Positions 14,758 through 19,639 of a DNA stretch of 64,000 nucleotides are shown piece by piece. The DNA lies in assembly GCA_949299565.1 (NCBI GenBank), contig OX437086.1, positions 352,919-416,918 of the forward strand. Reading direction: 5' to 3'. Positions within the stretch are counted from its first letter, which is position 1, and each line of letters starts with the position of its first letter. The notes under the pieces are model-generated. The model had not been told where the DNA came from. It made no database searches and saw nothing but the letters and a program-made list of their open reading frames with translations. The DNA comes from an uncultured Bacillota bacterium. GTDB taxonomy: Bacteria; Bacillota_I; Bacilli_A; RFN20; CAG-826. The position numbers and the translations under genes are program-made.

Positions 14758-16323
14758 ATGGATTTAGGATTAGCCATCCTCACGGCTGTCTTGGCTGCTC
14801 TTGGTGCGGCCATCGTGACTTTTCTCGTTCTCTTTTTCTTGGTTCCAACTGTTCACAAAAGAATTGTTGGAAAAGACGCTAAACGCATTAAAAAGGACGC
14901 AGAAATCAAAGCTGAACGGATTTTAAAGAACGCGCAACTTGACGCTAAACAGGCGCTTTATGAAGCGAAACAGCAAGCGCAAAACGAGGCGCGCGAAATC
15001 AAACAAGAAGCTTTCAGTTTGCAAAACAAGTTAGAAGCGCGGGAACGGACAATCGATGCGCGCGATAACGCTTTGCTCAACAAAGAAAACGCATTAGAGG
15101 CAAAAAATGATGTCCTCAATCAAAAAATCGCAAATTACGATAAGAAAACTCAAGAACTTGAGTCAAACATTTCAAAAATCATTGCTGAACTTGAAAAGGT
15201 TTCTGGAATGTCGACAAAAGAGGCACATGATGAAATAATGCGCCGAGTTGAGAGCCGCATGTCGCAAGAGATTGCCGCCTACATTAAAAATCAAGAAGAT
15301 GAAGCTGAATCGCAAGCAGAGGCCAAAGCTCGCGATTTATTGGCGATGGCATGTGACAAATACGCTCAAGACGTTGTAACAGAACGGACGGTGGCGGTCA
15401 TTTCTTTGCCCAACGATGAATTAAAAGGTCGGATCATCGGACGCGAGGGACGAAACATTCGTGTTTTGGAACAAACTCTCGGAGTCGATTTAGTGATTGA
15501 CGACACGCCGGAAGTCATCACGATTTCATGCTTTAACCCGATTAGACGCGAAATTGCTCGAAGAACTTTGACCGCGCTTGTTAAAGACGGGCGCATTCAA
15601 CCTGGCCGCATTGAAGAAATGGCCGCTAAATATCAAAAGGAAGTTCAAACCGAAACGCAAAAGGTTGGAGAGGAAGCTGCTAACCGCTTAGGCCTTCCGC
15701 GGATTAATCGTGAATTGCTCGGTTACCTCGGACGCTTAAAATATCGCACTTCATATGGGCAAAACGCTCTTGAACATTCAATAGAAGTCGCGCATTTAAC
15801 AGGTTTAATGGCCGCTGAATTAGGACTCGATCAAAATTTAGCAAAGCGAGCGGGCCTCTTGCACGATATTGGCAAGGCTCTCGACTTTGAAGTTGAAGGT
15901 TCGCACGTGGCTTTAGGAGCGGATTTGGCCCGCAAATACAATGAACCGGAAGTTGTTATCAATGCGATTGAATCGCATCATGGCGAAGTGGAACCGAAGA
16001 GTGTCATCGCTTATTTAGTGAAAGCGGCTGATACGTTGTCTGCTGCCCGTCCGGGAGCTAGAAGCGAAACGATGGATGCTTACATTAAGCGGATTACGCA
16101 GTTGGAAGAAATTGCTAATTCCTTCGATGGTGTCCAACAAGCTTATGCAATGCAGGCAGGGCGAGAAGTGCGCGTGATGGTCATTCCCGAAAAGGTGTCA
16201 GATGCTGAGGCTGTGAAGATGGCGCAAGAGATGCGCGATAAAATCGAAACGACAATGGCATATCCAGGTCAAATCAAAGTTTCGGTCATTCGCGAATATC
16301 GCGCGGTTGAGACTGCTAAATAA
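14758..16323 (+). CDS. rny: ribonuclease Y
   Basis: RNase Y is the membrane-bound endoribonuclease that starts mRNA decay in many Bacillota. The 521-residue protein has an N-terminal membrane helix (about residues 5-30) and a long charged coiled coil (about 40-190). A KH domain follows (VISLPNDELKGRIIGREGRN, about 214-233), then an HD domain with LLHDIGKALD (about 369-378) and the ESHHGE element. All expected catalytic His/Asp residues are visible. It sits between recA and miaB, as in B. subtilis. The neighbouring MiaB has a tail like RicA, a known RNase Y-complex protein. Confidence 0.97.
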   Translation: MDLGLAILTAVLAALGAAIVTFLVLFFLVPTVHKRIVGKDAKRIKKDAEIKAERILKNAQLDAKQALYEAKQQAQNEAREIKQEAFSLQNKLEARERTIDARDNALLNKENALEAKNDVLNQKIANYDKKTQELESNISKIIAELEKVSGMSTKEAHDEIMRRVESRMSQEIAAYIKNQEDEAESQAEAKARDLLAMACDKYAQDVVTERTVAVISLPNDELKGRIIGREGRNIRVLEQTLGVDLVIDDTPEVITISCFNPIRREIARRTLTALVKDGRIQPGRIEEMAAKYQKEVQTETQKVGEEAANRLGLPRINRELLGYLGRLKYRTSYGQNALEHSIEVAHLTGLMAAELGLDQNLAKRAGLLHDIGKALDFEVEGSHVALGADLARKYNEPEVVINAIESHHGEVEPKSVIAYLVKAADTLSAARPGARSETMDAYIKRITQLEEIANSFDGVQQAYAMQAGREVRVMVIPEKVSDAEAVKMAQEMRDKIETTMAYPGQIKVSVIREYRAVETAK

Positions 16324-16335
16324 GATGAGGATAAA

Positions 16336-18024
16336 ATGCTTAAAAACAGCGAAATCAAACGTGAAAAATTAGCGTTAGAAATTCCGACTTTAGTCAAAGA
16401 GAAGTTAAGCGGCAAACTGTTTTATGCTAAGACGTTCGGCTGTCAAGCAAACGTTCGCGACGAGGAAACGCTTGATGGTCTTTTGTTGATGGCAGGTCTT
16501 AAAAAAACCGATGATCCGCGAAAGGCTGATTTAGCGCTTATCAACACTTGCGCTGTCCGCGAAAATGCTGAAGAAAAAATTTATGGAGAAATCGGCTCTT
16601 TTAAGGAGAATTGGGAGAAAAATCGCGATTTCATTTTGATAGTTTCTGGTTGTGTCGTCCAAGAAGAAGGGATTCCGGCTAAACTTTTAAAAAGTTATCC
16701 ATGGCTTTCTCTTTGTTTAGGAACGCACGAGGTGCCGTATTTATTAAAGCATCTTGAGGATTATTTAAAGAGAAAAAAGCCGGTTGTCGCAACGCCTTCC
16801 GTCTCTGGTCTCATTGTTGAGGATTTGCCGTCCCTTCGTTATTCTTCTTTTCAAGCATTCGTCAACATTTCCTATGGATGTGATAAATTCTGCACATATT
16901 GCATCGTCCCTTATCTTCGCGGGCGTGAACGCAGTCGGATGATGGATGATGTTTTGCGCGAATGCCAAAATTTAAAAGAGGAAGGTTTTCTTGAAGTTAC
17001 GCTTCTTGGACAAAACGTTGACGCTTATGGATTGGATTTTAAAGATCCCGCGATTAATTTTGCAGTGCTTCTTAAAAAAGTCGCAGAACTTGGAATTCCG
17101 CGTGTCCGTTTTTTGACTTCTTATCCTTCGCAGCTGAGTGATGAGACAATCGAAGTGATGGCTACTCATAAAAACATCATTCCTTGGCTCCATTTACCAG
17201 TTCAATCCGGCAGCACCTCTTGCCTTAAAAGAATGGGAAGACGTTACACACGCGAAGAGTATCTGGAACTTGTTCAAAAATTAAAAAACAAAATCCCCGA
17301 TTTAGCTATTACGACCGATATCATCGTTGGTTTTCCCGGCGAAACGGAAGAGGAATTTTCTGAGACGCTTTCTTTAGTCGATGAAGTTAAATTCAGCAGC
17401 GCTTTCACCTTTATATATAGTCCTCGCAAAGGGACGCCCGCAGCGAAATGGGAGCAAGTTCCTTCTCCAATTACGCGGGAACGCTTCTCGCGCTTGAAGG
17501 AAGTGGTTGAGAAAGCAACATCTTTCCATAGCGATTCTCTTCTCGGGACTGTTCAAGATGTTTTAGTTGAAGGAATCGCTAAAAAAGGAAGCGGAATGCT
17601 TGTCGGCCATACCGCAAACGGAAAACCAGTCAATTTCATGGGGCCTGAATATCTCATCGGGACAATCGCGCCGGTGAAAATCAACGAATCTCACGTTTAT
17701 TCTCTTTTGGGTGTTTTAAATGAAGATCCGTTAATCATCAAAGCGAAAAAAAGCGCCTATCTTCTCTCGCTTGATCCCCTGTTAAAAGAGCGGATTAACG
17801 ACGAGAAGAAAATAGAAAATTCATCTTTGAAAAAGAAGTTCCTTGAATTAAAAAAATATAAAGAAACAATGCTTGCATCGCCGAACGATCAAGGTTTGAA
17901 GGACGATTATTATCGTTTAATTAGAGAAATTGAAGAAGACCCGCTTTTTAAAAATCGAAATGCCAAATTAGATATGGCTGAGGATGAAATTTCCTTAATC
18001 AGCGAGCTTTTCAAAGATTTATGA
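16336..18024 (+). CDS. miaB: MiaB tRNA methylthiotransferase with a C-terminal RicA/YmcA-like domain
   Basis: MiaB is a radical-SAM [4Fe-4S] enzyme that turns i6A37 of tRNA into ms2i6A. The first ~460 residues are a complete MiaB: the N-terminal cluster Cys in FGCQANVRDEE, NTCAVRE and VSGCVVQE; the radical-SAM motif CDKFCTYCIVPYLRGRERSR; and a TRAM domain ending near residue 455. A further ~100 residues (about 463-562) are helical and contain LKDDYYRLIREIEEDPLFKN, which resembles the YlbF/YmcA family (B. subtilis RicA: EALK...I..L..ELEEIP.I..F). In B. subtilis ymcA is a separate gene directly after miaB (ymcB). The tail has no Cys, unlike RicA. It overlaps miaA by 4 bp. Confidence 0.92.
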   Translation: MLKNSEIKREKLALEIPTLVKEKLSGKLFYAKTFGCQANVRDEETLDGLLLMAGLKKTDDPRKADLALINTCAVRENAEEKIYGEIGSFKENWEKNRDFILIVSGCVVQEEGIPAKLLKSYPWLSLCLGTHEVPYLLKHLEDYLKRKKPVVATPSVSGLIVEDLPSLRYSSFQAFVNISYGCDKFCTYCIVPYLRGRERSRMMDDVLRECQNLKEEGFLEVTLLGQNVDAYGLDFKDPAINFAVLLKKVAELGIPRVRFLTSYPSQLSDETIEVMATHKNIIPWLHLPVQSGSTSCLKRMGRRYTREEYLELVQKLKNKIPDLAITTDIIVGFPGETEEEFSETLSLVDEVKFSSAFTFIYSPRKGTPAAKWEQVPSPITRERFSRLKEVVEKATSFHSDSLLGTVQDVLVEGIAKKGSGMLVGHTANGKPVNFMGPEYLIGTIAPVKINESHVYSLLGVLNEDPLIIKAKKSAYLLSLDPLLKERINDEKKIENSSLKKKFLELKKYKETMLASPNDQGLKDDYYRLIREIEEDPLFKNRNAKLDMAEDEISLISELFKDL

Positions 18025-18902
18025 GAAAAGCAATCGTCGTTTTGTCTGGGCCGACTGCAAGCGGGAAAAGTGCTTTAGCAGACTCTTTATTGACGGAATA
18101 TCCATTCTCTTTATTGAACGGAGATGCCTTTCAAGTCTATAAGGAGATCGGGCGCATCACATCGATGCCGACGAATCTAGAGGGCAGTTTTCTCTACAAT
18201 TTTTTGTCACCAGATACGCCTTTTTCAATCGCGGACTATCAGTGTTTAGGAAGAAAGAGTCTTCATGAAATTTGGGAGCAAGGGCGAATTCCTTTAGTCG
18301 TTGGCGGCAGTGGTCTTTATTTGCGAAGCCTTCTTTTTGATTATGATTTTCAATCAGAACATAAAATTGACATAAGCGATCTTGAAAAATTGGACAACGC
18401 AGAACTCTATCGGCGATTACGAGAAATTGACCCGGAAGATGCAAAGAAAATCCACCCAAACAATCGTGTGCGAGTTCTTCGTGCCCTGACGATATTTCGT
18501 GAAAGAGGCATCAATAAAAGCGAAATCCTCAAACTTCAAAAACAAGATTTCCTTTATCCGACTCTCTTTCTCTTTTTAGATATTGATCACGAACTTCTGA
18601 AAAAGAGAATTCAGGAACGCACCAATCTTATTTTTGAGGAGAATTTTTTAAATGCATTTAAGAATATTTATGAGCGATATCCTCAAAACAGTCCCGCTTT
18701 CCGAGCGATCGGAATCAAAGAATTAAAGGAATATTACGAAGGAATTATTTCGCTTGATCAATTGAAAGATCTCATCAACATTCATACTAATCAATACGTC
18801 AAGCGGCAAAGAACTTTCTTCCGTCATCAGTTCCCGCATCTTATAACTGTTCATGACTTACCGGAGATAAAAGAAAAAATTGATGAATTTTTCCTTGAAT
18901 AG
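18021..18902 (+). CDS. miaA: tRNA dimethylallyltransferase MiaA
   Basis: MiaA transfers the dimethylallyl group to A37 of UNN-reading tRNAs, making the substrate of MiaB. The 293-residue protein has the P-loop LSGPTASGKSALADSLL (about residues 7-23), the NGDAFQVYKEI segment (the DSxQVY position, here with Ala), GGSGLYLRSLLF (about 95-106), and the FRAIGIKELKEY motif. The ATG overlaps the miaB stop (ATGA), so both enzymes of the ms2i6A pathway are translated together. Confidence 0.96.
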   Translation: MRKAIVVLSGPTASGKSALADSLLTEYPFSLLNGDAFQVYKEIGRITSMPTNLEGSFLYNFLSPDTPFSIADYQCLGRKSLHEIWEQGRIPLVVGGSGLYLRSLLFDYDFQSEHKIDISDLEKLDNAELYRRLREIDPEDAKKIHPNNRVRVLRALTIFRERGINKSEILKLQKQDFLYPTLFLFLDIDHELLKKRIQERTNLIFEENFLNAFKNIYERYPQNSPAFRAIGIKELKEYYEGIISLDQLKDLINIHTNQYVKRQRTFFRHQFPHLITVHDLPEIKEKIDEFFLE

Positions 18903-18940
18903 ACTTTCTCTTTTAGTGAGAAAGCGTGCAAAATAAACAA

Positions 18941-19639
18941 ATGGAATCTTTTTTAACGCGAACTGAACAACTATTTGGGGCGGACACTATAAATCTTTTT
19001 AAAAACAAAAGAATTGCGATTATCGGTTTGGGCGGCGTCGGCGGAACTTGTTTAGAAGCTCTTGCTCGAACTGGTTTTCAAAACTTCTTTTTGATGGACG
19101 GAGACGTAGTGCAAGAGAGCAATTTAAACCGCCAAATTCTTTATACACGGGAAGATTTAGGAATAAAAAAGGTGGATGCTGCCACTAAGCATTTGCGCCT
19201 CATCAATAAAGAAATAGAAATATCTTCAGCCGGAGAGTTTTTGAACAAAGAGAATGCGGATAAATATTTATCTGACGATTTTGACTTTATTGTCGATGCA
19301 ATTGATGACTTGGAAGGCAAATTAATTTTAGTAGGTATAAGCGAAAATCGACGGATTCCTTTAATCTCTTCTCTCGGCATGGGCAATCGTTATGATTTGC
19401 GGCAACTAGAAATTACGACTTTAGATAAAACGACAATAGACCCTTTGGCCAAGAAGTTTCGGCATCTTTTGCGCATTAACAATTTTGATTTAAAGAAGGT
19501 TAATGTCGTTTATTCAAAAGAAATGCCTCTTAAAAAAACACCAATTTCTTCTTATATGCTGGTTCCTTCTACTGCAGGGCTTTTTTTGGCGTATCATATT
19601 ATCTTGTCATTAATGAAAGGAGCCGTGAAAAATGATTAA
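18941..19639 (+). CDS. tcdA: tRNA threonylcarbamoyladenosine dehydratase-like E1 protein (TcdA/CsdL)
   Basis: TcdA cyclises t6A37 of tRNA to ct6A using ATP. The 232-residue protein has the E1-like nucleotide motif AIIGLGGVGGTCLEALARTG and the substrate/ATP residues DGDVVQESNLNRQILY typical of ThiF/MoeB/TcdA proteins. DAIDDLEGKL contains the conserved VDAIDD element. The cysteine pairs of MoeB/ThiF zinc sites are absent, which favours TcdA. Next to miaB-miaA it extends a tRNA-A37 modification cluster. The start is uncertain: GTG 18926 is also in frame and neither has a clear Shine-Dalgarno; CAAAAT lies 6 nt before the ATG. Confidence 0.85.
   Translation: MESFLTRTEQLFGADTINLFKNKRIAIIGLGGVGGTCLEALARTGFQNFFLMDGDVVQESNLNRQILYTREDLGIKKVDAATKHLRLINKEIEISSAGEFLNKENADKYLSDDFDFIVDAIDDLEGKLILVGISENRRIPLISSLGMGNRYDLRQLEITTLDKTTIDPLAKKFRHLLRINNFDLKKVNVVYSKEMPLKKTPISSYMLVPSTAGLFLAYHIILSLMKGAVKND

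Follow-up and report, generated by a model that had tools for sequence, protein, structure and literature searches.

The window analysed here, a stretch of 64,000 nt from the genome of an uncultured Bacillota bacterium (a single contig of 1.06 Mb, 99.98% complete), contains an open reading frame for a protein of 562 amino acids in which the enzyme MiaB continues at its C-terminus into a RicA (YmcA) domain (Table 1). RicA assists RNase Y, an mRNA-cutting enzyme, and MiaB completes a tRNA modification for which the product of MiaA, i6A37, is the substrate. The genes are ordered rny, miaB-ricA, miaA and then a ThiF/TcdA-like gene, and rny ends at 16323, 12 nt upstream of the fusion gene. The ThiF-family gene (18926-19639), which is also found after miaA in many relatives, has as its best NCBIfam match TcdA, the ct6A37 synthase, at 126 bits, below the cut-off of 304; since a TcdA-like gene thus adjoins miaA, the locus is a cluster of several A37 modification genes. 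The host group consists of uncultured Bacilli; those of its relatives that have named records derive mostly from animal guts.

Table 1. Coordinates of the fusion gene, its parts and the adjoining genes in the window.
Feature	Position	Strand	Support
miaB-ricA fusion gene, 562 aa	16336..18024	+	full-length AlphaFold2 model, pLDDT 86.5, pTM 0.81
MiaB enzyme part, residues 29-459 (UPF0004, radical SAM, TRAM)	16420..17712	+	
RicA (YmcA) domain, residues 460-562	17713..18021	+	profiles, synteny, predicted fold
rny (RNase Y), directly upstream of the fusion gene	14758..16323	+	TIGR03319, 652 bits
miaA, 4-nt overlap with the fusion gene	18021..18902	+	TIGR00174, 216 bits

The enzyme part of the protein is that of an intact MiaB. 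Residues 29-459 score 461.7 bits against the MiaB equivalog TIGR01574 (cut-off 355.3), the TRAM domain spans residues 402-460, and the cluster-binding cysteines C36, C72 and C106 together with C182, C186 and C189 are invariant among 20 aligned MiaB proteins. In its enzyme part, domain order, six cluster cysteines and adjoining miaA, the protein corresponds to MiaB (YmcB), the tRNA-2-methylthio-N6-dimethylallyladenosine synthase, from which it differs by the additional C-terminal RicA domain. Judging from the intact cysteines and the neighbouring genes, the MiaB part is most likely active and would convert i6A37 to ms2i6A37 after MiaA.

An earlier note on this DNA had observed that the protein runs about 100 residues past the TRAM domain and had likened the tail to the YlbF/YmcA family. 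The extension was confirmed as residues 460-562, and the assignment was borne out once relatives were brought in. Taken alone, the window tail gave only chance matches in Pfam, NCBIfam and the PDB, so that the direct comparison with Com_YlbF which the note had proposed yields no match at E<=1 and succeeds only by way of relatives. In a joint alignment of fused and separate members, however, the Com_YlbF profile PF06133 matches 24 of 25 sequences, at best with an E-value of 2e-10, the window tail being the sole silent one; of ten fused tails scored singly, seven lie above the Pfam cut-off of 23.9 bits, the highest reaching 38.8. When solved structures were searched with a profile of the tail family, RicA/YmcA of B. 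subtilis came first (6prh RicA, 4.8e-7; 2pih YmcA, 1.1e-6), with RicF (6prk) well behind at 0.047.

Genomic position leads to the same assignment. Where relatives within the order are unfused, the fused-tail profile finds a separate open reading frame of about 91-125 amino acids directly 3' of miaB, with E-values down to 1e-24 and usually overlapping the miaB 3' end. In Paenibacillus and Cohnella, profiles built from this order detect a RicA of 150-175 amino acids following miaB (E about 1e-12 to 1e-14). This is the position of ricA in B. subtilis, and the synteny of miaB and ricA has been noted in the literature (PMC6751060). In the tree of these proteins, a branch with a support of 94 (not starred) parts RicF from all fused and separate members and from the RicA of Paenibacillus and Cohnella.

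The predicted fold is also that of RicA. An AlphaFold2 model of the tail, computed with 20 relatives, has a mean pLDDT of 83.7 and five helices (465-479, 481-494, 497-514, 519-534 and 536-561), and five helices are also found in RicA of B. subtilis (PMC6751060); in the full-length model the first RicA helix begins three residues past the last TRAM strand. The tail is thus predicted to be ordered, where disorder would have spoken against the earlier proposal. In a Foldseek search with the tail model, Com_YlbF proteins fill the first six rows and RicA leads (6prk_B, TM 0.69), although the E-values exceed 0.1 and the weight lies on the ranking and the sequence profiles. VIA-align 2 ranks 2pih (Z 10.6 over 104 residues), 6prk_B (10.6) and 6prh (10.5) first, with 2iaz and 2oeq next, before Z falls to 7.7 for unrelated bundles; for helical bundles, Z values of about 10 are modest, and it is again the ranking and the sequence evidence that carry weight. 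Profile, synteny, tree and fold together confirm the window tail as a RicA (YmcA) domain. It shares with B. subtilis RicA (2pih, 6prh, 6prk) the five-helix fold, the Com_YlbF family and the position after miaB, and differs from it in being a domain of MiaB and in lacking the C-terminal extension that bears the Fe-S ligand C141.

In B. subtilis, RicA C141 forms cluster 2 of the Ric complex together with RicF C134 and C146 and RicT C167, and formation of the RicT-RNase Y complex needs this cluster (PMC6751060, PMC10470536). The earlier note was correct that the tail contains no cysteine, so that the C141 ligand is missing along with the extension, but this is not special to the fusion: RicA proteins encoded separately in this order are just as short and are without the ligand-bearing extension, which places the loss of the ligand before the fusion. 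Stray cysteines occur in 8 of 51 fused tails. RicF in the window's genome is likewise devoid of the cysteine-rich tail. Because the cluster 2 ligands of both RicA and RicF are absent, the Ric pathway here cannot match the known mechanism exactly; the missing C141-type cysteine touches the identity of the mechanism rather than homology. The Ric system of this order either runs without cluster 2 or uses another set of ligands. That MiaB's own clusters replace it would be speculation.

The partners of RicA are encoded in the same genome. RicT (268 amino acids, L089 1315-2121) scores 221 bits against NF041131 and shows the pattern CX4CC-X30-CX4CC, as in the six-cysteine pattern described for RicT (PMC6751060); it was detected in 141 of the 146 genomes of our order sample. 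A RicF-like protein of 108 amino acids (L001 1486-1812) lies directly before rsmD-coaD, an order which we take to be that of the B. subtilis ylbF neighbourhood. It is divergent, scoring 21.6 bits against PF06133 (cut-off 23.9), and is syntenic with the clear RicF of relatives. Both partners are retained in the fused genomes. A separate ricA elsewhere, which would have counted against the proposal, was not found in this essentially complete genome: PF06133 matches only RicF, and the family profiles A1 and A3 match only the MiaB tail, a match given by construction since the window tail is a row of both profiles. Compared with the known Ric complex (RicA-RicF-RicT, the Y-complex) acting with RNase Y, the window's genome thus has the six-cysteine RicT and the RicF before rsmD-coaD, whereas its RicA is tethered to MiaB and its RicF is without the cysteine-rich tail, so that the canonical cluster 2 cannot form.

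Within the order sample, all 17 genomes of the window's genus (g1) carry the fusion, as do 15 of the 16 from the sister genus g5 and 2 of the 18 from a third genus (g7); the 95 remaining genomes lack it. Outside the family, no fusion was found among the matches listed for the class sample, or in the phylum and genome_contigs samples; frames longer than 540 amino acids in G142, G266, G222, G325, G295, G054 and G067 proved to be unfused MiaB. A tree of the MiaB core, from which the tail was left out, needs four changes of state, each of them required by starred branches. They are most simply explained by a single fusion that predates g1 and g5, a single split within g5 and two fusions that occurred independently in g7. 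How the join came about can be seen in the fused L049 and its sister L084, in which the genes are separate: the two share 80% DNA identity over the unit, with about 0.1 changes per site in MiaB, and in the fused form the miaB stop codon is gone and the frames are joined. This comparison shows the origin of the fusion: the 3' end of miaB and the start of the overlapping downstream ricA merged into one frame. The split concerns L044 (1414-3178, genome G156), which lies inside the fused clade and has separate miaB and ricA frames, with an ATG 4 nt after the miaB stop; its RicA frame still has the linker motif of the fused form, which is consistent with a secondary split or with an assembly error in a genome that is 88% complete.

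The tail is present in all other genomes of the same genus that have the full gene. Its omega is 0.03-0.19 in every computable close pair except one, and that of the MiaB core is 0.03-0.12; the exception, at 0.43, is the pair whose protein sequences have diverged most. Purifying selection acts on the tail, which evolves faster than the MiaB core. The component families and the adjacency of miaB and ricA were known; the fused domain architecture appears new, in that no report of a MiaB-RicA fusion was found in the literature searched, which takes in few subscription papers.

Taken together, these observations make it probable that the protein is an intact MiaB whose C-terminal RicA domain remains active in the Ric/RNase Y pathway, with a putative functional coupling of the two. 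The MiaB part would continue to make ms2i6A37 from i6A37 after MiaA, and the RicA domain, like RicA of B. subtilis, would still pair with RicF and help to load RicT onto RNase Y, presumably without the usual Fe-S cluster 2. The fusion itself would set the ratio of MiaB to RicA at 1:1 and tether MiaB to the Ric/RNase Y machinery; as a hypothesis, it is plausible that tRNA A37 modification is thereby coordinated with mRNA processing. Two further points that had been put forward for such a coupling fared less well. First, the Ric proteins had been said to be linked to tRNA methylthiolation, for which the literature searched holds no support; only the synteny of miaB and ricA is mentioned there (PMC6751060). 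Second, rny was noted to precede miaB. The adjacency is real, but it is not a new link: in most relatives ymdB (a metallophosphoesterase, TIGR00282) lies between the two genes, and it is absent from the gap (16323-16336) in the window's species, as it is in L003, L006 and L007. From this gene order, the adjacency is ancestral synteny from which ymdB was lost, so RNase Y linkage was rejected as a new feature and, being inherited, adds little to the coupling idea.

The protein could also have come about, and could function, in other ways. First, the fusion may be neutral, co-transcribed overlapping genes having been joined by small mutations while both halves keep their ancestral jobs and the link has no regulatory meaning; we regard this as possible, and as clearly less likely than a working connection. 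Most unfused relatives have overlapping miaB and ricA genes (79, compared with 15 that have a gap), so a fusion needs only small frame changes, the genes in L044 are separate again within a fused clade, and fused and unfused species are closely related in g7. Against a neutral origin, there were three independent gains, and the fusion has been kept across g1 and g5; moreover, the fusion gene and miaA overlap in 53 of 54 loci with no fusion there, a weak control given that it is a single junction. Three fusions of a conserved pair are suggestive, yet a neutral origin keeps its standing because overlapping genes fuse easily.

Second, the RicA domain could have taken on a new role within MiaB, in tRNA handling, Fe-S maturation or dimerisation, and have ceased to serve RNase Y. 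The absent cluster 2 cysteines and the faster evolution of the tail would agree with this, and the domain could dimerise MiaB, considering that B. subtilis RicA forms homodimers (PMC6751060). We nevertheless consider it unlikely: the cysteines were lost before the fusion and are equally absent from the separate RicA of the order, genomes with the fusion retain RicF and RicT, and the fold and the RicA-type sequence are retained. Third, and just as doubtful, MiaB and the Ric complex may form one functional unit that is covalent here, in which RNase Y specificity is set at, or responds to, A37 methylthiolation and the [4Fe-4S] clusters of MiaB act as an iron or redox sensor in place of cluster 2; if so, the ancestral miaB-ricA pair would reflect the same partnership across Bacillota. 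Finally, that the tail is an unrelated helical or disordered extension resembling Com_YlbF by composition, as the silence of the window tail by itself might suggest, is ruled out, with next to no probability left to it, by the homologous profile matches, the free-standing homologues adjoining miaB in the place of ricA, conservation within the genus, purifying selection and a confident five-helix fold with RicA as its top match, none of which would be expected of a chance tail.

The preferred reading, a RicA domain still in service on an active MiaB, bears on why ricA lies beside miaB across much of Bacillota and on the role of the Fe-S clusters of the Ric complex. Elsewhere MiaB and RicA are encoded by separate neighbouring genes; their joining, about three independent times, would connect tRNA modification with mRNA processing in a testable way, and with RicF and RicT kept it constitutes 'Rosetta stone' evidence for a link. 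The fusion provides a single protein with which the link between MiaB and Ric can be tested, and the natural loss of the cluster 2 ligands provides a variant with which to examine whether Ric function requires that cluster.

Some relatives differ in their complement of Ric proteins. Four genomes of the same family, G130 and G143 (L077, L060), G138 (L123) and G142 (L090), have MiaB and RicT and no detectable Com_YlbF protein, whether RicA or RicF. They seem to have lost both while keeping RicT, and such a joint loss fits the action of RicA and RicF as a pair; RicT may act there without them, or the proteins may have diverged past detection. Since these relatives keep MiaB, MiaB has no general need for RicA. 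At four loci of g7 (L106, L107, L109 and L110), the open reading frame after miaB is 125-127 amino acids long and is marginal or unrecognisable as RicA in three of the four, which suggests very fast RicA evolution in part of that genus. In Clostridia (L174, L184, L194, L199, L204, L207, L208 and others), the gene after miaB encodes a Com_YlbF protein of 125-147 amino acids (67-69 bits in the two tested) that ends in a four-cysteine motif such as CTHDCSTCGGCH; there, a cysteine-rich tail of the kind known from RicF belongs to the protein encoded at the RicA position.
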